Part shown: positions 28,281-41,038 of the stretch, piece by piece
How the letters are laid out: the number at the start of each line of letters is the position of its first letter
How positions within the stretch are numbered: position 1 is the first letter of the stretch
IMG/VR virus record: IMGVR_UViG_3300011116_000510
Span: 1-41,584 of that record
Source: a virus
Reading direction: 5' to 3' (one strand)
DNA: 41,584 nucleotides
Position numbers and translations under genes: made by a program
Notes under the pieces: model-generated
What the model was told of the DNA's origin: nothing
The model's database searches: none
The model's input: the letters and a program-made list of their open reading frames with translations, nothing else

Positions 28281-28755
28281 ACTCTACGCAAAAGAGTTAT
28301 CCGCACATTACCCTATGATGTGGAACGCTATTGACGAAATGGCATTATCCAAAGTTAAACGCAAATACCCTGTGGTGCTGGATTACATAATGTTCTGTAT
28401 CAACTTTGAGGATTGGGTTGCCCTGTTCGCTGATGTAGTTTCTTACTCGTTTAATGTGAAGAAACCGCTACTATCACGGCAGAAAGATTACGGAGTGAAC
28501 ACCAATATTCCAATTATGTTGGAGTTTGTTGTCGAATATATCCCACGGTTACAGGAAAACGACGCAGAACTGGCAAATACCTTTATTGACGAATTGGCAG
28601 AATGGCGACGGACTATCCTGCTACGGACAGCGTCAGGTCATACACCGAGGTACAACCAGAAGCAGAAATGCCCTGCGTGTAATAACGCGTCGCTAATGAA
28701 GCAGAATAATATTCTTTATTGCGGTAATGTTGCTTGCGTATGGGTACAAGTGTAA
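28264..28755 (+). CDS. Helical protein with C-terminal zinc ribbon
   Basis: 163 residues. Residues 1-130 are helical and rich in aromatic residues (HYPMMWNAIDEMALSKVKRKYPVVLDYIMFCINFEDWVALFADVVS). Residues about 137-158 contain CPACNNASLMKQNNILYCGNVAC, a four-Cys ribbon with an irregular second pair. Nothing identifies the family. Overlaps the HNH gene by 16 bases. Confidence 0.55.
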   Translation: MATQYKLYAKELSAHYPMMWNAIDEMALSKVKRKYPVVLDYIMFCINFEDWVALFADVVSYSFNVKKPLLSRQKDYGVNTNIPIMLEFVVEYIPRLQENDAELANTFIDELAEWRRTILLRTASGHTPRYNQKQKCPACNNASLMKQNNILYCGNVACVWVQV

Positions 28756-29093
28756 AACTCCGCGAGCAGGTGCTTGAACGGTGTCAGGGTTACTGCGAGT
28801 CTTGCGGTGTGACGCTACCCGAAAACTTTGCTTTACATCATAGGAAACTAAAGTCGCGCGGTGGCAAAGATGTGTTATCTAATCTAATAGCATTACATCA
28901 CGAGTGTCATAACCTCGGTAGACCGTCAGCGCATTTAGATGTGGCGTGGGCTACGGAACGCGGTCTACTCGTACCTTCTTGGGAGTCCAGCGTGTCGTAT
29001 CCCCTAACTTTGCCAGACGGTGCTAAGGTGTTACTACTAGATAATGGCGGTATGGAGATACTGCCCGACGATGAAGGAGAAGGCAATGGCTAA
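28740..29093 (+). CDS. HNH endonuclease
   Basis: 117 residues from ATG 28740. REQVLERCQGYCESCGVTLPENFALHHRKLKSRGGKDVLSNLIALHHECHN has the full HNH pattern: two CxxC-type cysteines, the HH pair, Asn and the final His. The C-terminal half is a beta-rich extension (SYPLTLPDGAKVLLLDNGGMEIL). It lies between early genes rather than next to terminase, so it could aid replication or be a former homing nuclease. The gene is not inserted into another gene. Confidence 0.8.
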   Translation: MGTSVKLREQVLERCQGYCESCGVTLPENFALHHRKLKSRGGKDVLSNLIALHHECHNLGRPSAHLDVAWATERGLLVPSWESSVSYPLTLPDGAKVLLLDNGGMEILPDDEGEGNG

Positions 29094-29445
29094 CGCAGCA
29101 ACCGTAACGGTGTTGGGTCGCGCAGGCAGCGAAGTAGAAGTTAAATTTCTACCGAGCGGTAAGGCAGTAGCGAATTTGAGTGTCGCTTGTACGCCGAGTA
29201 AGAAGACGGACACAGGTTGGGAAGACCTAGAAACTCTATGGTTCCAAGTATCTACTTTCAGTTATGTGGATAGCCTTGTGGAAACTGTGGGGAAAGGCGA
29301 TTTGGTGTCTGTAACAGGTAGGTTATCTACTCGTTCCTACACGAATAAGGCTGGCGAGGAAAAGACCGTTCTGAATATTGACGCGCAGAGCGTATCCCTT
29401 GTGCAGAAGAATAAAAAAGACACGGCGGAAGCAGCACCGTTCTAA
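29086..29445 (+). CDS. ssb: Single-stranded DNA-binding protein
   Basis: 119 residues from ATG 29086 with SD AAGGAGAAGG. The OB-fold pattern is clear: ATVTVLGRAGSEVEVKFLPSGKAVANLSVACTPSKK, ETLWFQVSTFSYVDSLVETVGKGDLVSVTGRLSTRSYTNKAGEEKTVLNIDA. It lacks the long acidic tail of bacterial SSB; only a terminal AAPF recalls the usual DDIPF tip, so recruitment of host partners may be weak. Coupled to the next gene by TAATG. Confidence 0.88.
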   Translation: MANAATVTVLGRAGSEVEVKFLPSGKAVANLSVACTPSKKTDTGWEDLETLWFQVSTFSYVDSLVETVGKGDLVSVTGRLSTRSYTNKAGEEKTVLNIDAQSVSLVQKNKKDTAEAAPF

Positions 29446-29666
29446 TGAACCGCGCAGAGGAATTACGCGACATAACTAAAAACTTTATTGTCGCTCACGA
29501 ATGCGCGAAGACTCTTAGTGTCCGTATAGCGAACGAGATTGACGCGTATGCGGATTACCTAGAAGCAGGTGGTAATGTGTTGGGAACGGTAGCAGGACTA
29601 CGGCAAGCAGCACAGATAGCGCGCGAATACCAAACAGAAGGCGATTATGGAAACCAAATCAGTTAA
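29445..29666 (+). CDS. Small helical protein
   Basis: 73 residues, start overlapping the SSB stop. Helical (RAEELRDITKNFIVAHECAKTLSVRIANEIDAYADYLEAGGNVLGTVAGLRQAAQIAREY). Unknown function. Its end overlaps the ParB-like gene by 20 bases, so it is part of the same unit as the modification cassette. Confidence 0.6.
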   Translation: MNRAEELRDITKNFIVAHECAKTLSVRIANEIDAYADYLEAGGNVLGTVAGLRQAAQIAREYQTEGDYGNQIS

Positions 29667-30294
29667 AATTGACACCCTTATACACTACGAGAATAACGCT
29701 CGTCGCGGTAATGTGGAAGTGTTAGCAGATTCGCTACGAGTACACGGACAGTACCGACCTATCGTCGTACAGAAATCCAGTAACTCTATTCTGGCAGGAA
29801 ATCACCTCGTAGAGGCAGCAAAGACTCTCGGCTGGGATAAAATTGATGTGGTGTTCGTAGATGTGGACGACGAAGCAGCACGGAAAATTGTGCTTGTGGA
29901 TAACCGTTCTGCCGAATTAGGCGAGTTCGATAAGGAAGCACTAATCGAATTACTATCCGAGTTAGGTAGTTTAGACGGTACAGGTTATGTTCTGGAAGAT
30001 TTAGACGACCTATTCGTTGATATCGAAGAAGCAGAAAACGAAACTATGTCGGAAGAAGACCGCTTCACCGTACCTTTAGCAGACGATAATGTGACGGAAC
30101 GAAAGAGTATCGCGCAGTTAGCCGAGGAATACGCTGGTCGCACGGTTCGCAACATTCAGTTAGAGTATGAAAACAAAACTTTCGTTTGGGTTGTTGAGAA
30201 ATTAGCAGCAGCGCGTGGTAGTCTGGGATTAGAGAACAACAGCCAACTAATCGTTCGGTTATTGGAGAAAGAACTAAACGAAAGCGCACCGTAA
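29647..30294 (+). CDS. ParB/sulfiredoxin-like domain protein of the modification cassette
   Basis: 215 residues. Residues 5-100 are a ParB N-terminal-type domain: LIHYENNARRGNVEVLADSLRVHGQYRPIVVQ, SILAGNHLVEAAKTLGW and DEAARKIVLVDNRSAE. The C-terminal half is acidic then helical. ParB-like domains with NTP-binding or nuclease activity often accompany DNA-modifying enzymes in phages, where they are thought to give DNA targeting or ATPase function. The next gene (dioxygenase) starts inside its stop codon (TAATG), tying it to the cassette. It is unlikely to be a partition protein because no ParA is present. Confidence 0.75.
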   Translation: METKSVKIDTLIHYENNARRGNVEVLADSLRVHGQYRPIVVQKSSNSILAGNHLVEAAKTLGWDKIDVVFVDVDDEAARKIVLVDNRSAELGEFDKEALIELLSELGSLDGTGYVLEDLDDLFVDIEEAENETMSEEDRFTVPLADDNVTERKSIAQLAEEYAGRTVRNIQLEYENKTFVWVVEKLAAARGSLGLENNSQLIVRLLEKELNESAP

Positions 30295-31181
30295 TGCAGG
30301 CATTAAGCGATTTACCGAAAATTGAAGTAACGCGCAGAGTCACGGCAAAAGACGCCGACGAGTTCGTAGGTCTGTATGTACCAGAACTGGAAGCGAATGT
30401 CACGGAAGCAGGTATCTATGTTGATGCCGAAACCCAAGAGCCGTTCCTAGCGTACTTTCCACTCCCGAAAGATGTTGTCCGACCGCTACGAGCAGCCGTA
30501 AATAACATCAACATCGGTATCGTGGCGCGAGAAACCTCAAAAGGGAAGTCGTGGCAAAGCAAATCTAGGACTTTCGGTATGGCACCGCGCCTAGCGTTCC
30601 GCAAAAGGGAATCCTGCCGAGTAACACCTTTGGCGACGGAATCCCCTAGCGAACACGCGGTCATCACCTCACTCGCTTCTGTATTCTCCGACTATATGAA
30701 GCAGATACTCCCAGAACAATACAAAGAAGACGCCGACCGTATGCAGGTAATCGGCGAGGACTGGAAAATTGGCGACCAAGACCTATGGACTAGCGGTGTC
30801 ATTAACCAATCCGCGTCTATGCCTTACCACCGCGACGGCTTTAACTTTAAGACTTGGTCAGTTATGCCTGTCGTACGGAAAGAGATGCTAGGCGGATACC
30901 TGAACTTTCCCGAATACGACCTGACCGTTGCTTGCCGAGACGGCTGGTTACTGTATTTTCCAGGATACAAGTATGTTCACGGTGTAACACCTATGCGAGC
31001 GAAAACAGAAACGGCATACCGTTACTCAATCGTGTATTACGCGTTACGCGGTATGAAAGACTGCTACACCTACGCCATGGAGACGGCGGAAGGGCAGAAA
31101 AAGCGTATCGAGCGCGAAGTAGATATGGCTAAAGTAATTAAGGGTGAGGCAGAAATTAAGATTGGTAAAAAGAAGAAGTGA
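30294..31181 (+). CDS. TET/JBP-type 2-oxoglutarate, Fe(II)-dependent DNA base dioxygenase
   Basis: 295 residues. The iron facial triad is visible: His179 and Asp181 in MPYHRDGFNF, and His229 in YVHGVTPM; Arg243 in YRYSIVYY is the likely 2-oxoglutarate ligand. Between them GGYLNFPEYDLTVACRDGWLLYFPG has the GG-x-L..PEY...G..L.F pattern of the TET/JBP family, which hydroxylates the methyl of 5-methylcytosine or thymine in DNA. The C-terminus is a Lys-rich tail. Neighbouring ParB-like and glycosyltransferase genes overlap it by one and four bases. No DNA methyltransferase gene is visible, so thymine is the likelier substrate. A different 2OG hydroxylation target remains possible. Confidence 0.75.
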   Translation: MQALSDLPKIEVTRRVTAKDADEFVGLYVPELEANVTEAGIYVDAETQEPFLAYFPLPKDVVRPLRAAVNNINIGIVARETSKGKSWQSKSRTFGMAPRLAFRKRESCRVTPLATESPSEHAVITSLASVFSDYMKQILPEQYKEDADRMQVIGEDWKIGDQDLWTSGVINQSASMPYHRDGFNFKTWSVMPVVRKEMLGGYLNFPEYDLTVACRDGWLLYFPGYKYVHGVTPMRAKTETAYRYSIVYYALRGMKDCYTYAMETAEGQKKRIEREVDMAKVIKGEAEIKIGKKKK

Positions 31182-32140
31182 AAGTCGCTCTCTTTTATCT
31201 CCCAGATGTTAAGTACGGTGGCTGGCCAACCTACACCGCACATCTCTACTATGGGCTGAAAGATGCAGGACACCAACCCAACCTGTACCGTATCGGGAAT
31301 AAGACGGAAACGAAGTCACGCGATTGGGGTCGCGGAATCCGATACCAGAATGTTTCAATCACCGACGCTATCTACATCGCCTCACAGGTGGAAACTATCG
31401 TAACCGCTACGAGTAAAAAGTATCAGTTAGAGACGGAAGCGTTAGTTAAGGCAGGCGCAACGGTCATAGTTCACGACCCAACAGAACTCAAAGGCGACAT
31501 ACCCGAAATCCTAAAACTCGCGAAAGATGTAGTAACTATTCGCGCAATAAACAAAGACACACTAAACGGTATGGGCATAAACGCTAGATATTTACGCCAC
31601 CCATACGCCAGACAGCCACGCCAACCCAAGGCTATGCGATTCCGTTGGGCAGCGTCATTCTCCCGAATAGACTGGGATAAAGGCACACACCACATAATCG
31701 AAGCGAACCAACATCTACCAAAAGATAAACAAATCACCATACACGGCGCAGCGAACACAATCTACGCCTACCACAAACTCCCAGAAAATTGGAAAGACTA
31801 CTACGCTGGGCAATTCTCCGCCGACAGCCTATGGGCAGGCGCAGTAATAGCATCACGCTACCATTGGGCAGTAGATATGAGTACCATAAGCGGAGACGGT
31901 GGCGGAACACAATACACTTTCCTAGAAGCAGCAGACGCAGGAACAGGACTACTCCTCAACGCAGATTGGCTAACAGGAAGACCAGACGACGAAATCCTCC
32001 CATACGCACACTTCACAAAACCAGAACAACTCGCAGACGCCTTAAAAGAGAAACCAACCATAGATTCCACAGGTCTACTAGCCAACCACAACGCAAAAAC
32101 GATAGCAGCGTATACAATAGACCATAAGACAACCCAATAG
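31178..32140 (+). CDS. GT-B glycosyltransferase (GT4-like), probable DNA base glucosylation
   Basis: 320 residues from GTG 31178 overlapping the previous stop. Residues 1-40 (KVALFYLPDVKYGGWPTYTAHLYYGLKDAGHQPNLYRIG) are the N-terminal Rossmann domain with the GG loop; FRWAASFSRIDWDKGTHHIIEANQHL (about 155-180) opens the second domain; GGGTQYTFLEAADAGTGLLL (about 245-265) is the sugar-nucleotide site with the ExxA-type Glu. Acting after the dioxygenase it would add a sugar to hydroxymethylated bases, as in phage hypermodification. Its 3' half is markedly A/C-rich. A virion-protein or cell-wall glycan target cannot be excluded. Confidence 0.75.
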   Translation: MKVALFYLPDVKYGGWPTYTAHLYYGLKDAGHQPNLYRIGNKTETKSRDWGRGIRYQNVSITDAIYIASQVETIVTATSKKYQLETEALVKAGATVIVHDPTELKGDIPEILKLAKDVVTIRAINKDTLNGMGINARYLRHPYARQPRQPKAMRFRWAASFSRIDWDKGTHHIIEANQHLPKDKQITIHGAANTIYAYHKLPENWKDYYAGQFSADSLWAGAVIASRYHWAVDMSTISGDGGGTQYTFLEAADAGTGLLLNADWLTGRPDDEILPYAHFTKPEQLADALKEKPTIDSTGLLANHNAKTIAAYTIDHKTTQ

Positions 32141-32151
32141 AAGGCAAAACA

Positions 32152-32580
32152 ATGGCTAGAAAAAGCAAACTAACGCCAGAAACACAAGACAAAATAGTGA
32201 AAGCGATACGCGCAGGTAACTACGCACACATCGCAGCAGCAATGGCAGGAATAGGCGAAAGCACCTACTACCGTTGGCTAGAACAAGGCGAAAGACCAGA
32301 CGCAAAGACACCATACCGCGAGTTTTGGGAGTCAGTAAAAGAAGCGGAAGCAGAAGCGGAAGTCGCTAGTGTTGCCCTAATTAGGCGAGCAGCGCAGAAC
32401 GGTACTTGGCAGGCGAGCGCGTGGTATCTTGAGCGTAAGCATTCTGAGCGTTGGGGTCGTAAGGATAAAGTCCAGCAGGAAATTAGTGGACGCGACGGCG
32501 AACCAATTAAGGTTGAGGATACTCGCCAGATTGTTATGGACTTGATTGAGCAGATTGCTCCTCGCGAGGAAGACGAGTAA
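32152..32580 (+). CDS. Terminase small subunit
   Basis: 142 residues with SD AAGGCA. Residues 10-50 (TPETQDKIVKAIRAGNYAHIAAAMAGIGESTYYRWLEQGE) form the homeodomain-like HTH that recognises the packaging site. A helical core follows (EFWESVKEAEAEAEVASVALIRRAAQNGTWQASAWYLERKHSERW), and the C-terminal tail contacts the large subunit. ATG of the large subunit overlaps its stop. The strand composition changes from A/C-rich to G/T-richer inside this gene near 32,340. Confidence 0.85.
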   Translation: MARKSKLTPETQDKIVKAIRAGNYAHIAAAMAGIGESTYYRWLEQGERPDAKTPYREFWESVKEAEAEAEVASVALIRRAAQNGTWQASAWYLERKHSERWGRKDKVQQEISGRDGEPIKVEDTRQIVMDLIEQIAPREEDE

Positions 32581-34022
32581 TGGCGGAAAGCCTGCTTGAA
32601 CAGATTGCAGGTTTATCCACAACCGAACGGAAACGCTGGGTTGAGAGCCTGCCAGAACAGGCAGCAGAGGAACTATCCAAGAAACCTTGGTGGTTTATCG
32701 GTAGACCTGAACAGCAACCACCCGAAACTGATTGGCATATTTGGCTAATCCTGTCTGGGCGCGGTTGGGGTAAAACTCGTACAGGCTCGGAATGGCTCGC
32801 TCAACAGATTCGCGATAACCCTGTCGCAGCAGACGGCTCACCAACGGAATGGGCTATCGTCGCACCAACCTTCGGTCTCGCGCGTGATGTATGCGTAGAA
32901 GGTCCATCTGGTTTCCTACGCGTTATTCGTGATGAGGAATTACGGTACTGGAATAGGTCACACGGCACAGTCCTATACGCGAACGGCTGTAAAGTCCACT
33001 GCTTCGGTGCAGATAACAGAGACGCTGGTCGTGGTAAGAACCTTGCTGGTGCTTGGTTAGACGAGTTCGCTATGTGGCCATACCCTGCGGAAACTTGGGC
33101 AGAAGGTCTCGCACCCTCTCTCCGTATTGGTAACAGACCACGCGCAGTAGTAACAACGACACCGAAACCTATCAAGATACTCCGCGATTGGGCGAAGCGT
33201 GAGGACGGCTCTGTCTATGTCACGACAGGCTCTACCTTCGATAACGCAGCGAACCTTTCTGGCTCTGCATTGGCGGAACTCCAAGCACGCTACGCAGGCA
33301 CAAGAACAGGCAGGCAGGAACTCTACGGCGAAATCCTTGAGGACATTGAAGGCGCGCTATGGACTATGCGTATGATTGAGGAATCACGCCTAACCTATCC
33401 ACCAGAAGACCTATCCCGAATCGTTGTAGCGATTGACCCTGCGGTAACCGCGCACGAGGAATCAGATGAGACAGGTATCGTAGTAGCAGGTCGCAACGGT
33501 AGAGGCGAAGGCTATGTCCTAGCAGACTACTCGTTCAGAGGCTCACCGCTGGAATGGGCGCAACGAGCAGTAGACGCCTACCGCACACACCAAGCAGACG
33601 GCATTGTTGTGGAAGTAAATAACGGTGGCGATATGATTCCTGCCGTTATTAAACAGATTGACTACACAATCCCAATCAGGGAAGTACGCGCAACACGCGG
33701 AAAGAAACTACGCGCAGAACCAATCGCAGCGTTCTACGAACAAGGCAGAGTCCACCACATAGGCGTATTCGACAAGTTAGAAGAACAAATGACAACTTGG
33801 ACGCCAGAGTTACCCAAATCACCTGATAGACTAGATGCATTAGTTTGGGCATTAACCGACTTGTTAGAAACATCAAGTTTGCAAGGGTACCTATCCGAGT
33901 TAGCAATCTGGTGCGATACCTGCAACCTACCTATGCCTAAAACACACACGACTTGTAGTAAATGCGGTATGCTATTAAGACCTGATGACGAACCACCGCA
34001 CGCTTTGATTGGAGTCCGATAG
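32580..34022 (+). CDS. terL: Terminase large subunit
   Basis: 480 residues. The ATPase has Walker A GRGWGKT at residues 60-66 and Walker B AGAWLDEFAMW near residue 160, plus TTTPKPIKILRDW (motif III) and the nuclease motifs VVAIDPAV, VVEVNNGGDM and DRLDALVWALTDLL. The protein pumps DNA into procapsids and cuts it. An unusual C-terminal zinc ribbon CDTCNLPMPKTHTTCSKCG (about 449-467) follows the nuclease. The portal GTG overlaps its TAG. The TerL type suits headful packaging, in line with the permuted ends, but that is inference. Confidence 0.9.
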   Translation: MAESLLEQIAGLSTTERKRWVESLPEQAAEELSKKPWWFIGRPEQQPPETDWHIWLILSGRGWGKTRTGSEWLAQQIRDNPVAADGSPTEWAIVAPTFGLARDVCVEGPSGFLRVIRDEELRYWNRSHGTVLYANGCKVHCFGADNRDAGRGKNLAGAWLDEFAMWPYPAETWAEGLAPSLRIGNRPRAVVTTTPKPIKILRDWAKREDGSVYVTTGSTFDNAANLSGSALAELQARYAGTRTGRQELYGEILEDIEGALWTMRMIEESRLTYPPEDLSRIVVAIDPAVTAHEESDETGIVVAGRNGRGEGYVLADYSFRGSPLEWAQRAVDAYRTHQADGIVVEVNNGGDMIPAVIKQIDYTIPIREVRATRGKKLRAEPIAAFYEQGRVHHIGVFDKLEEQMTTWTPELPKSPDRLDALVWALTDLLETSSLQGYLSELAIWCDTCNLPMPKTHTTCSKCGMLLRPDDEPPHALIGVR

Positions 34023-35958: not shown

Positions 35959-38805
35959 ATGCGTAAAAGTATCAAACTTGACGGTATCGCTGATGCTTGG
36001 CTAAACCACGAACCAACAACGAAGGCTATCTCCGCAGATGATGTGAAGAAAGCGATTGAGTGGGCGAAAGTCCATATCCACATTAACTCTGATGATATCC
36101 AGCAGGCACTAATTCGTATCTACGGTGACGGCTTTATTTTGGGTAAAGATGCAGCGATGCACGAACTCACAGGACAAGTCCTAACGGATTGGGCGAAGTG
36201 GAAACCAGGAAATCGTGGTGCAGCAGCGTTAGTCGCTAGGCTGAACGGTCTACTTTCGTTGGTAAATAATTCCTCACAAGTTATTAGCGGATTAAATACG
36301 ACAACATACAATAGGTTGGGTCGCGTACTCGCGGAAAGCCTAGCCGAGGGTAAGAGCGGTAGAGCGACAGCGAAGCGTATTACCGCAGAACTCGGACACA
36401 TCATTGACGACCCTGCTCGCGCGCTAACGATTGCGGTAACGGAGACGCGTAGAGCCGTATCAGCAGCCTCTATGCAGGCATACACGGCAGCAGGCGTGAA
36501 GCAGGTTAGTTGGCTAATCGCTGAAGGCGAAGGGCTGTGCGACGCTTGTAGGGGCAATAGCGAGGATTCACCTGTGGATATGGGTGAGGCGTTTTCTTCT
36601 GGCGATTATGCGCCACCAGCACACCCGAATTGCCGTTGCGCGGTTCAGCCTAATGTTGCTACGGAGATTACGCAGGACGAGTTTGAGGCTATGTTCGCAG
36701 AGTATGAAGCGGATATGGCTTTGGCGGTTATGCCTAGCGTTATGAAGTATGACGAAGACCAACCTCGTGACGAAAGAGGAAGATTTAGTAGTACCGCAGG
36801 TCAGACTGGCACAGGTTCAGGTAATAAGTACGCCATACATAAAAGCATTACCGACCGAACCAAATCTTATTTCTCCAAAAATAAAGACTATTTATTTAGA
36901 AGAAACATTATTTCTTGGGCAGGAGACGACCCAACACCAATGAGTCAGGCTACAAAATATATGGTATGTTCTGACATCGCTGACCGTATGAGTGATGAAC
37001 CTATCGAATCTATCATATCTGCTGGCAATGCTTTTTCTTTCTGTGCAATGGAAGGCGCAGGTGTGCGTAGTGCCACCGACGAAGAGATAATGGCAGCACT
37101 AGAAAACCCTGATGCTGGTTTTATTTTCAACGGCGAAGGTTTAGGTATTCGTTTTGAAAAAGTTGATTTTGACGACGGAAGAATTACTGATAGAAGCGAC
37201 AAAGAAACTGCTTTACGAGAATGGCTCGTATCGGGTATGGTTTCATCTTGGGCTACTAGCAGTAACGATTCGCGTGAAACTTCTCTCGCTATGCAGGAAC
37301 GCGCTACCGAATTATTTGGCATAGAAAATTATGCTGATTGGGATGTCGCAGACTCAACAAGCGACAAAGTAGATGAACTAATCGGCGAACACGGTTTAGT
37401 AATAGATTCGTTTCTGCAAGCGCAATATGATTCCACTCAAGAGTTTCTAAAAAGCAGTGGGATAGAAGAATTATCTTTAACTCGTGGAACAACTTTAACT
37501 TCCTCTTGGACTGATAATTCTATAACAGTAGGTAAAGAACAAGATGTAGTTATGCGACCGTTGTCTTCTTGGGCTTATGATGAGGAAGTTTCTGCCCAAT
37601 TTGGTAGTCACACTTTAACTAGCACTTTCCCTGCGGAACGCGTTTTCTCTTTAGCAGTAACTGGGGTTGGTTGCCTTGGTGAGAGGGAAGTTGTTGTTCT
37701 TGGCGGAACTATCAAAGCCGATGTTACCCCGAAATACGGCACAAAGAAGTTAGATAAGTATCGTGACGACCAACCTCGCGATGAACACGGCAGGTGGACT
37801 GCTAGCGTCGGCGGTGCTGAGGCGATTATGGCAGGCGTGAAGGAAACTGAGAAGTGGCTACAAGAACACAATTATTTATCTTACGATAATGGCCACCCAT
37901 ATATGAGCCACATTATTCGAGAAAGAGCCGAAAAAGAATTAGCAGTAAAATATAAATACACAGAAGGTTTAGGCTCTCGTAACGCTATGCGCGCAGCGGA
38001 AGCGGAGATAGGTCGGTTTATGGTCGCAGCAGAATGTGCAAAGCAGGCAGAGTTCCGTGCTGACTGGGAAGCGCGTATGGCTAAAGAAGACCCAGAATGG
38101 TACGCGCAGCAGTACGAGGCTAATAAAGAACTCGGTATGCAGCAAATACAAGACGCTTACGATAATGGTCGCATCGCTATCGCGATAGATGAAGAATCTT
38201 TCGTGGAGATGCTTGAAGACGGTAGATACAAATCTCAGTATGAGACAAAAACTACCCACGGAACAAAAGATTTAGAACTCCGCAAAGTTACTGAAGATAT
38301 CGCTATGGGTCTACCTGTTGATATGAAAACTAGCGAACGACCTATCTACGGTTTCATTGTGACTAATACCGAACCTGTTATGTCGCGGGATAAAGACTAT
38401 TGGAAACAACCTTCTGAAGGGTTATGGCACGATACTCTCTCAATAAATAGTCGAAGTGTAGAACACTATGGCGACATCAGACTCGTACTAAATGACGATG
38501 TGCGCGATAGGACAACCGCAACCGTAGACGATTCTTTAAGTAACGGAAGGTTCGCTCTACCTCTTGGTACACAATTAACTGAACGAGACTATGCCTTCAA
38601 TGGTGGGCTGGCGAGCGGTTTCGTTGCTAGTGGTGCTGGCGGTGGACCTGCTCTACGCTACATAGAATCACAAACTGTTGGCGGTGTTCGTAGTTCTGAC
38701 ATAGCGGAAATCCACGCAGAAGCAGAACAGGTAGACTTCATTCAGAACCTACTGGACGAACACGGTTTAGATGTGCCGATTATTGTGAGAGAGGAAGACT
38801 ACTAA
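35959..38805 (+). CDS. MuF head morphogenesis protein with ADP-ribosyltransferase and second effector-like domain
   Basis: 948 residues if begun at ATG 35959; probably synthesised as a portal fusion by -1 shift at 35872-35878, since no SD precedes the ATG and the upstream frame reads SADDHKVDVRLAAEQSLFLRAAM. Residues 1-255 are MuF-like (ALTIAVTETRRAVSAASMQAY, LCDACRGN, APPAHPNCRCAVQP). A DEDQPRDERGRFSS tag near 265 starts an ADP-ribosyltransferase domain to about 595 with Arg509, Ser536-Ser537-Trp538 and Glu575-x-Glu577. A second tag DDQPRDEHGRWTA near 603 starts a third domain (SERPIYGF, YGDIRLVLNDDV, RYIESQTVGGVRSSDIAEIH) resembling DUF3626-like toxins. The cargo is probably injected with the DNA. 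Confidence 0.75.
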   Translation: MRKSIKLDGIADAWLNHEPTTKAISADDVKKAIEWAKVHIHINSDDIQQALIRIYGDGFILGKDAAMHELTGQVLTDWAKWKPGNRGAAALVARLNGLLSLVNNSSQVISGLNTTTYNRLGRVLAESLAEGKSGRATAKRITAELGHIIDDPARALTIAVTETRRAVSAASMQAYTAAGVKQVSWLIAEGEGLCDACRGNSEDSPVDMGEAFSSGDYAPPAHPNCRCAVQPNVATEITQDEFEAMFAEYEADMALAVMPSVMKYDEDQPRDERGRFSSTAGQTGTGSGNKYAIHKSITDRTKSYFSKNKDYLFRRNIISWAGDDPTPMSQATKYMVCSDIADRMSDEPIESIISAGNAFSFCAMEGAGVRSATDEEIMAALENPDAGFIFNGEGLGIRFEKVDFDDGRITDRSDKETALREWLVSGMVSSWATSSNDSRETSLAMQERATELFGIENYADWDVADSTSDKVDELIGEHGLVIDSFLQAQYDSTQEFLKSSGIEELSLTRGTTLTSSWTDNSITVGKEQDVVMRPLSSWAYDEEVSAQFGSHTLTSTFPAERVFSLAVTGVGCLGEREVVVLGGTIKADVTPKYGTKKLDKYRDDQPRDEHGRWTASVGGAEAIMAGVKETEKWLQEHNYLSYDNGHPYMSHIIRERAEKELAVKYKYTEGLGSRNAMRAAEAEIGRFMVAAECAKQAEFRADWEARMAKEDPEWYAQQYEANKELGMQQIQDAYDNGRIAIAIDEESFVEMLEDGRYKSQYETKTTHGTKDLELRKVTEDIAMGLPVDMKTSERPIYGFIVTNTEPVMSRDKDYWKQPSEGLWHDTLSINSRSVEHYGDIRLVLNDDVRDRTTATVDDSLSNGRFALPLGTQLTERDYAFNGGLASGFVASGAGGGPALRYIESQTVGGVRSSDIAEIHAEAEQVDFIQNLLDEHGLDVPIIVREEDY

Positions 38806-39914
38806 TGTGGACTCTCTACCGTAAAACTAACGGTGACGAAATTATTTACGACCACACAGACGGCGACCTCACCTACGGTTTCGTTAGGCGTAAAGGTGTA
38901 GATTATCCACCGCAGATTATTGACCAGTTATTGGCTCGCGGTTATTGGGAAATCGTTAGCGACCTGAAAAAAGAGTTCAACGAAGACCAACTGCGTGATG
39001 AACACGGTCGCTGGACTAGCGGTGGTATCGGTTCGGATATGACACCAGAGGAACGCGCTGAACGGTTGGCGTCTTCCGAGTATGTTGTTGGTGGCGGTGT
39101 CCTAATGGCACAGGAAGAAAAACAAGCATTCTTGGTAGAAAAATTTGATAATGCTTACAATTATTATGATATAAAAACTCCTGAAGATTTACACGAATTC
39201 CTAAAAAACAGGCTAGAGACTGCGCAATGGGATAGGGAGAATGTACAAACCTGTAAAGCGGATTTGCGTGTATTCGAGAAAGGTCTAATTTGGAAAAACG
39301 GCGAAACCGTCGTCTATATGACAGACCCACGATACGGTAAAGACGGCGGTATTCAGGCAATCGCTACTAACTTAGACAACCTTCAAGAAGCAGCACCTGT
39401 TGAGAGATTAGATGTATTCGCAGGATATGCGGTAAGTACCGCATTGGCGAGCGCAACCGTCGGCGCAGAAAACAACATAGCATCTGGCGACACACCTGTT
39501 ATGTACCTGAAAGCAGGTAATCTACGCGACTATGATGAAACTACCGAATCAAGATTCCCTCTCGAGGCAACATACCGACAGCAGATAGGTGGCTCAACGG
39601 TACGCGCTAGTGAAGGCGAAGGCTACCAGCATTGGGTTCCTGCACAATTCGGCGATACGAAAGCGTTAGACTCTGCTATGGCGCACGAATGGGGGCATCT
39701 AATGACACGCAATCCTGATGACCCGACAGGTGCTTGGTGGTCAATGCAAAGCGCGGTTGAGAGTATCCGCGATAATAACCCAACGATTAGTGGCTATTCT
39801 CTAAAGTCTTGGCGCGAATATGTGGCGGAATCGTTCGCGGAATGGCATTTGAGCGGTGGGGAAACTAAAGTAGAAGGCGCGAGACAGGTTGCGGAGTTGA
39901 TGAAATGGAAATAG
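38805..39914 (+). CDS. Zinc metallopeptidase (zincin), tagged head-associated effector
   Basis: 369 residues, ATG overlapping the previous stop (TAATG). HEWGH at residues 294-298 is the zinc-binding HExxH, with Glu342 or Glu346 in YVAESFAEWHL as third ligand. The N-terminal 55 residues are a small beta domain. EDQLRDEHGRWTSGG at about 60-74 is the same tag seen in the MuF protein and the prohead protease. The middle (80-280) is unassigned. Likely packaged and delivered, or used to process head proteins. Co-translated with the ADP-ribosyltransferase genes. Confidence 0.75.
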   Translation: MWTLYRKTNGDEIIYDHTDGDLTYGFVRRKGVDYPPQIIDQLLARGYWEIVSDLKKEFNEDQLRDEHGRWTSGGIGSDMTPEERAERLASSEYVVGGGVLMAQEEKQAFLVEKFDNAYNYYDIKTPEDLHEFLKNRLETAQWDRENVQTCKADLRVFEKGLIWKNGETVVYMTDPRYGKDGGIQAIATNLDNLQEAAPVERLDVFAGYAVSTALASATVGAENNIASGDTPVMYLKAGNLRDYDETTESRFPLEATYRQQIGGSTVRASEGEGYQHWVPAQFGDTKALDSAMAHEWGHLMTRNPDDPTGAWWSMQSAVESIRDNNPTISGYSLKSWREYVAESFAEWHLSGGETKVEGARQVAELMKWK

Positions 39915-41038
39915 ATAGAAACGCTACTTGCGAGATTACGGCTGACGATTATGTGAATCTGTCTATCTTTGATTTACTTTCGCGAGCGAAAAGCGGTGAC
40001 GCGTTGGCGCAGCAGACATTGGCTCGTATCGCGCGACCTGTTAATAAAATGAATAAGTATGACGAGAATCAGCCTCGTGATGAGCGTGGTCGATTCAGTA
40101 GCACCGCAGGTATCACTCCCGAAGGTAATACGGAACGCACCGAGTTACGCGGTGATGTAGCCGAACACATACGACTATATTTACAAATGAATAGGTCAGA
40201 TTTGATGCAGCGTGGTTTAATACCATATGGTTTTTCTGGTCAAAATTCGCAGGCTGCAAAAGTTATGGTTATGCGCGACATAGCCGAGCGCATGAACACC
40301 GTACCAACCGAGGACATAATCGCGGCAACCGCCGATTTAGGTAGAGCGCGTAACGAATCCAACGACCCATTCGATTATGCTGACGAATTAGAATTACAGC
40401 AAGCATTAGAAGACCCGAATAAAGGTTTCCTTTTCGACGGCGAAAGTTTAACTATCACAGGCGCAGACCCTCTTGTGGAAGATAGTATGCGTTACGACAG
40501 CCCTGAAGAAAAAGAAACTTGTTTGCGCGAATATTTAGCAGCGTGTCTCGTATCAAATTGGGCAGGAACAAGTAACGATGAAAGTCCACCGTCTTTGGCT
40601 TTACAAGAAGTAGCAGAAATGACATTCGGAATTAAAAACGCTGCTGGCTGGGAACACCCTAGCGAAGGAGAAGTTTTAGATTTAATAAACCAACACGGTG
40701 ATGTTATGGATGCATTCCTGCAAGCACAATACGACGCAACGCAAGAATTTTTATCAACAACTAATACTAATGAGATTACCCTCTACCGAGGCACGCAAAA
40801 CGAACTTGTTAATAATGTTGAAAGTTTCCCAATGGGTGCTGACTTAGACCTTAATATGCGACCGTTATCTTCTTGGTCTACCGATAGAATAGTGGCTAGT
40901 GGTTTTGGCGACAGGACTATTACTGCGACTTTCCCAGCAGAACGAATATTTAGCCTACCGATTACAGGGCTAGGTTGTTTGAACGAAGAAGAAGTCGTTG
41001 TTCTCGGCGGAACAATTCGCGGAAACATAGATAGATAG
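39905..41038 (+). CDS. Second ADP-ribosyltransferase, paralogue of the MuF effector domain
   Basis: 377 residues, overlapping the zincin gene by ten bases. After a 50-residue N-terminus comes the tag DENQPRDERGRFSSTAG (about 53-69). The rest aligns along its length with residues 265-595 of the MuF protein: AFLQAQYDATQEFL, Arg295 in TLYRGT, Ser322-Ser323-Trp324 in RPLSSWS, TFPAERIFSL and Glu361-x-Glu363 in NEEEVVVLGG. These are the R-S-ExE elements of arginine-type ADP-ribosyltransferases. It lacks a MuF domain, so it may reach the head through its tag. Confidence 0.75.
   Translation: MEIDRNATCEITADDYVNLSIFDLLSRAKSGDALAQQTLARIARPVNKMNKYDENQPRDERGRFSSTAGITPEGNTERTELRGDVAEHIRLYLQMNRSDLMQRGLIPYGFSGQNSQAAKVMVMRDIAERMNTVPTEDIIAATADLGRARNESNDPFDYADELELQQALEDPNKGFLFDGESLTITGADPLVEDSMRYDSPEEKETCLREYLAACLVSNWAGTSNDESPPSLALQEVAEMTFGIKNAAGWEHPSEGEVLDLINQHGDVMDAFLQAQYDATQEFLSTTNTNEITLYRGTQNELVNNVESFPMGADLDLNMRPLSSWSTDRIVASGFGDRTITATFPAERIFSLPITGLGCLNEEEVVVLGGTIRGNIDR

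Follow-up and report, generated by a model that had tools for sequence, protein, structure and literature searches.

The window analyzed here, the whole 41,584-base IMG/VR virus record IMGVR_UViG_3300011116_000510, carries three consecutive genes next to its terminase genes. They encode a ParB-like protein, a TET/JBP-type 2-oxoglutarate (2OG)-Fe(II) dioxygenase (TET), and a GT-B glycosyltransferase (GT) (Table 1). Together, the three genes quite probably form a post-replicative pathway in which thymine is hydroxylated in DNA and the resulting 5-hydroxymethyluracil (5hmU) is glycosylated, with neither a methyltransferase nor a modified deoxynucleoside triphosphate. In relatives of this phage, the position between TET and the gene of the terminase small subunit (terS) is an exchangeable tailoring slot, which is a new finding. 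We also consider it reasonably likely that the window specifies a base-J-like thymine through a TET/JBP hydroxylase and a GT-B family for which no model exists, and that the GT is swapped by recombination at a fixed site, so that close relatives carry chemically different thymines on the same hydroxylated base.

In the proposed pathway, TET would first add a hydroxyl to the thymine methyl group in phage DNA, yielding 5hmU. The GT would then move a sugar from a nucleotide-sugar donor onto the hydroxyl of 5hmU, and the glycosylated thymine, similar to base J, may conceal the phage genome from nucleases of the host. The ParB-like protein would bring the oxygenase to DNA or set its sites. The fixed TET-terS slot would accept different tailoring modules in exchange for one another, the GT among them; in relatives it holds modules of a 5hmU kinase and an amino-acid transferase or other glycosyltransferases. 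Most likely, one TET product, 5hmU, feeds these alternative chemistries, with glycosylation in the window phage.

If this is true, phages can change their DNA camouflage through the exchange of one gene. The phage version would show the two-step logic of base J in prokaryotic viruses and would supply thymine-specific TETs as well as glycosyltransferases for 5hmU. Near-identical phages that differ by the slot swap provide a natural test, in which the same TET is paired with a kinase in one case and a GT in the other.

An exchangeable slot between TET and terS

A search of IMG/VR found 255 relatives, and the best 80 were used for locus comparison. Slot counts refer to 55 non-redundant loci with closed slots. 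The frame HNH-SSB-ParB (one or two copies)-TET-slot-terS-terL is constant around these relatives, and the slot is filled in all 55 loci. A kinase of the 5hmU-DNA-kinase type (Pfam Ploopntkinase3) occupies 31 slots. It is accompanied in 28 of them by an ADDT-type "amino acid:DNA transferase," and many hold a further DAO or pyridoxal phosphate (PLP) enzyme. Glycosyltransferases are found in 15 slots, as the GT-A "TET-associated glycosyltransferase" (TAGT) defined by Pfam and/or as a GT of the window type, which is present in nine, once together with TAGT. An unclassified two-gene module (c18+c16) fills another nine. An earlier sequence-only reading of the window had suggested a search for relatives with the same gene order, and such relatives thus exist. 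The same reading had described the cassette as a single unit leading directly into the terminase. The gene overlaps and the adjacency stand, and the order ParB-TET-X-terS proves to be general in this phage group rather than peculiar to the window.

The exchange is apparent from contigs L025 (window-type GT) and L027 (kinase), which derive from separate metagenomes. DNA identity between the two is 89.5% as far as the TET end and 89.9% over 4.5 kb from terS, whereas the sequences between TET and terS are unrelated (968 bp with the GT versus 577 bp with the kinase). At the protein level, TET is 93% and terS and terL are each 97% identical. The same swap pattern is found between L047 (GT) and L066 (unclassified module), whose TETs share 93% identity. 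The window-type GT is scattered over the TET tree: its eight rows require eight changes, and a single clade is rejected (approximately unbiased test, p-AU 5e-35).

The simplest explanation for the interchange of the GT with a kinase that phosphorylates hydroxyls, downstream of one and the same oxygenase, is that both use the same hydroxyl as substrate. The chemistry of the kinase/ADDT/PLP modules, in turn, points to 5hmU as the TET product. The slot ADDT and PLP enzymes are 26–30% and 38–42% identical, respectively, to homologs in ViI-like phages of Salmonella, Vibrio, and Klebsiella.

The GT might instead act on something other than the oxidized base, such as a virion protein or the host surface, and neighbor TET by chance, in which case the final base would be free 5hmU or no modified base at all. 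GTs with other targets are common in phages, and similarity to the GT4 fold is generic. However, each viral relative of the GT that was found adjoins a TET gene or sits one TAGT gene away, the GT replaces a kinase at the identical site, and kinase and GT are mutually exclusive (0/55 slots with both), making such a target very unlikely.

Several slots hold further combinations. The c18+c16 module (between TET and terS in L002, L004, L029, L030, L038, L039, L042, and L066) encodes a ∼308-amino acid protein and a ∼148-amino acid HAD-like protein (MIGYDIDGVLA). It has no match in Pfam or PDB and was therefore not counted as a GT, but it is probably another tailoring chemistry. L018 (130-1859) and L019 (774-2506) feature a TAGT GT-A and a window-type GT-B in tandem in one slot, a possible two-sugar chain. 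The slot of mycobacteriophage Acadian (L097 1707-3025) combines TAGT with a PIG-L-type deacetylase, which suggests an amino-sugar on the base. In a cyanophage-type marine lineage (L092, L093, and L098-L177), the order is ParB, an FkbM-type methyltransferase, TET, terS, and terL; here the tailoring gene precedes TET, and the methyltransferase perhaps O-methylates the hydroxyl. This marine TET set contains no kinase and only two TAGT-like matches, and it provided no comparator acting on 5-methylcytosine (5mC).

Features of the three proteins

The window TET matches Pfam Tet_JBP at 28.7 bits (E 8.9e-7), below the gathering score of 34.9, which the TET of relative L011 passes at 35.6 bits. His-179, Asp-181, His-229, and Arg-243, already named as TET/JBP motifs in the sequence-only reading, are kept in 92 of 92 aligned relatives and correspond to the HxD...H Fe(II) triad and the 2OG-binding arginine on a DSBH core. 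The 22 best PDB fold matches to the predicted structure all belong to the TET family (CcTet, NgTET1, CMD1, and TET2), whereas the prolyl hydroxylase PHD2 makes its earliest appearance at rank 46. An identity as prolyl or small-molecule hydroxylase, which had been put forward as the outcome that would speak against a TET, was rejected by this fold comparison. Judged from the slot contents of its relatives, the enzyme would most likely oxidize the C5-methyl group of thymine in DNA.

Two further candidates were set aside. The name "queuine tRNA-ribosyltransferase," which PHROG and RefSeq give to the phrog_6059 family, was rejected, as both Pfam and the fold point to Tet_JBP. For the gene at 30294-31181, this label appears to be a misannotation passed on between database entries, one of which reads "DpdA-like tRNA-guanine transglycosylase." Asn-184, the equivalent of NgTet1 Asp-234 and TET2 Asn-1387, was not used as a sign of base choice because TET2, a 5mC enzyme, likewise has an asparagine there.

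The GT belongs to a new family without a match among the family models of Pfam, PHROG, and NCBIfam. Its AlphaFold2 model (mean pLDDT 82.8) assumes a GT-B fold with two Rossmann-like domains. Foldseek matches in PDB are mostly GT-B enzymes, including GT4 enzymes and the T4 α-glucosyltransferase (AGT) with hydroxymethyluracil (HMU)-containing DNA, and matches among viral models include phage DNA α-GTs and two SP-15 GTs. Although the window GT shares the GT-B fold with T4 AGT and the phage DNA α-GTs, identity to them is only 10–13%, the T4 acceptor is 5-hydroxymethylcytosine (5hmC), and numerous GT4 enzymes that do not act on DNA give equal or better matches. An alignment of 10 GT members shows invariant HDPTE, SRIDWDK, and GDGGGTQY.FLEA motifs, and Arg-163, Lys-168, and Glu-250 are invariant as well. 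The R/K and E motifs are presumably the donor-site motifs of GT-B/GT4-like enzymes. A sequence-profile search of PDB returned no significant match, and no homologs were found in the GenBank phage collection. For TAGT (PF20691, GT-A), neither the Pfam scan nor a six-frame search of the window gave a match. On the coding strand, the GT gene is very T-poor and A/C-rich in its 3′ half (31621-32140), with 14.8% T compared with 25% genome-wide.

In the ParB-like protein, only the ParB_N domain is matched, and Pfam gives no match to a partition helix-turn-helix domain. The score against the NCBIfam model parB_part is 29.9 at a cut-off of 58.45, which places the protein outside the canonical partition ParBs, and GNH replaces the GERR-type box, as judged by eye. 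One or two ParB genes precede TET in almost all relatives whose sequence extends that far. Because of this constant position and the lack of a partition-type match, the protein probably recruits the oxygenase to DNA or determines where it acts. Such a partner could also supply site choice of a narrower kind: TET and ParB might mark only a few sites (near pac or regulatory) for packaging or timing rather than protect the whole genome. The constant adjacency of terS and terL in freshwater, actinophage, and marine relatives fits this scope, which is compatible with glycosylation of 5hmU. Gene position alone is weak evidence, however, and the diverse, often elaborate tailoring modules look more like diversification under attack by host defenses, so that marking of a few sites appears rather unlikely.

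Thymine versus cytosine as the substrate

Profile searches with PF00145 (cytosine-C5 methyltransferase, C5-MTase) and PF00303 (thymidylate-synthase-type, including nucleotide-level hydroxymethylases) covered 50 records, including the window. METHYLTRANSFERASE is absent from the window: PF00145 has no match there, whereas the same model matches in 10 of 14 control genomes. The earlier statement that the genome lacks a C5-MTase is thus borne out. PF00145 is absent from 43 of the 50 records, and PF00303 is absent from all of them. A six-frame search of the window revealed neither a 5hmU DNA kinase nor an amino acid:DNA transferase.

On a cytosine route, a host or unseen C5-MTase would make 5mC, TET would convert it to 5hmC, and the GT would glycosylate the latter. 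The TET homologs with solved structures do act on 5mC, and phage systems of C5-MTase, TET, and GT have been described (in a passage of PMC12730594). Moreover, C5-MTase genes or pieces occur in seven of the 50 records. The full-length ones that were located, however, lie outside the cassette (∼5 kb from TET in L023 and ∼11 kb in L039), and C5-MTases are found in records with kinase slots as well as in those with GT slots. Taken together with the lack of this gene in the window and most other records, and with the kinase/ADDT/PLP modules that the same TET lineage feeds and that have known relatives acting on 5hmU, this makes the cytosine route unlikely. Oxidation of thymine followed by glycosylation, the base-J-like option of the sequence-only reading, is much better supported than the use of host 5mC, namely by the ViI/M6-type neighbors, the swap at the same site, and the rarity of the methyltransferase.

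Some observations weigh against the proposed thymine pathway or limit how far it can be taken. The acceptor of the GT is read from gene position, and in principle a GT in the slot might have a different target. The model of the window TET is only moderately confident (pLDDT 72.3), and this TET sits on a long branch of the TET tree, so that kinship is a less direct guide to its substrate than it is for L025 and L027. The seven records with C5-MTase genes or pieces include L023/L024, which bear the same GT. Finally, Leu-251, eight residues past the 2OG arginine, aligns with NgTet1 His-297 in a profile alignment and is a leucine in 92 of 92 relatives. As His-297 presumably contacts 5mC, the leucine is compatible with a different base, but Leu-251 alone does not prove thymine specificity.

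Two observations concern the C5-MTase genes themselves. A full-length gene (L178 974-1942) lies ∼5 kb upstream of the ParB-ParB-TET-GT locus of L023/L024 and is probably a separate gene. The C5-MTase-like genes of the L033 and L078 records (L180 and L181) are split over two overlapping frames, as in decayed or two-part enzymes.

Phage TET/JBP proteins were reportedly linked to ParB, kinases, and GTs by Iyer et al. in 2013 (cited in PMC6449724). The window locus shares the layout of the TET-based thymidine hypermodification loci of actinophages, with ParB, TET, and a tailoring enzyme upstream of the terminase. Such a system was predicted for Rhodococcus phage Tonitrus, with reference to earlier work (PMC11955845). 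As a prediction, TET-based thymidine hypermodification lacking a methyltransferase therefore has precedent. Tonitrus (ParB/Tet-like/aGPT-Pplase2/5-hmU DNA kinase; PMC11955845), Gordonia phage Wooper, and mycobacteriophages Nigel, Prince, and Acadian possess homologous ParB and TET proteins, and the window TET is 38–49% identical to actinophage proteins. Their loci read ParB-TET-(aGPT/ADDT)-kinase-terminase, ParB-TET-kinase-terS, or ParB-TET-TAGT-PIG-L-terS and differ from the window in the slot, which carries a kinase with ADDT/aGPT, a kinase alone, as in Arthrobacter phage Kharcho, or TAGT with PIG-L.

The modified thymidines of phages ViI, M6, and phiW-14 are thought to arise from 5-hydroxymethyldeoxyuridine (5hmdU) in DNA, on which a 5hmdU DNA kinase acts to add a phosphate before amination follows (PMC6449724). 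The window would share the 5hmdU intermediate, and the ADDT and PLP enzymes of its relatives are homologous to those of ViI-like phages. In contrast to ViI and M6, which are described as making 5hmdU and incorporating it during replication (PMC6449724), the window lacks PF00303; TET would produce 5hmU in the polymer, and a sugar would take the place of the amine.

The base J pathway of kinetoplastids (JBP1/JBP2 and the J glucosyltransferase) resembles the proposed sequence of thymine hydroxylation in DNA and subsequent glycosylation (PMC6449724), but the evidence for common components extends only to the oxygenase superfamily. The window GT is a GT-B family of its own, in a phage context with ParB and terminase. 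The cytosine hypermodification by phage C5-MTase, TET, and GT (Burke et al. 2021, in a passage of PMC12730594) has TET and GT in common with the window, which differs in lacking the C5-MTase and in a TET lineage tied to 5hmU-type kinases. That passage, on phage TETs with C5-MTases and GTs acting on cytosine, is not a description of the window locus. As of 2019, there was no report of glucosylated 5hmU in phages (PMC6449724); for YerA41, an oligosaccharide-like substitution of thymidine has been reported (PMC9023294).

Locus layout and host

All three open reading frames of the cassette are present as the sequence-only reading had described them, and its overlaps are real: 1 bp between the ParB-like and TET genes and 4 bp between TET and GT. 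The GT gene stops 11 bp ahead of terS.

Table 1. Genes of the cassette and its flanks, in window coordinates
Feature	Position	Strand	Evidence
HNH gene, before the SSB gene	28734-29093		Pfam HNH 3.1e-7
Single-strand binding protein (SSB), constant upstream flank	29044..29445	+	Pfam SSB 1.8e-21
ParB-like protein, 215 aa	29647..30294	+	Pfam ParB_N 6.7e-8; PHROG ParB-like families to 4e-44
TET/JBP-type 2OG-Fe(II) dioxygenase, 295 aa, proposed DNA thymine C5-methyl hydroxylase	30294..31181	+	Tet_JBP 8.9e-7; phrog_6059 2.9e-76
GT-B (GT4-like) glycosyltransferase, 320 aa, GTG start, proposed 5hmU-DNA glycosyltransferase	31178..32140	+	AlphaFold2 model, Foldseek
Terminase small subunit terS, downstream border of the exchangeable slot	32152..32580	+	phrog_4102 2.5e-37; conserved right border
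Terminase large subunit terL, constant downstream flank	32580..34022	+	51-60% identity to relatives' terL

Two large open reading frames after the head gene (38805-39914 and 39905-41038) have no PHROG match. The opening 175 bp of the window recur at its end with few mismatches. Because of this recurrence, the genome is very likely complete, as had been claimed, and circularly permuted, although IMG/VR does not list it as closed. Every close relative that has been isolated infects Actinobacteria, and only one cellular record, an Actinomycetota metagenome-assembled genome, contains a relative. An actinobacterial host is therefore likely for this virus of freshwater bacteria.

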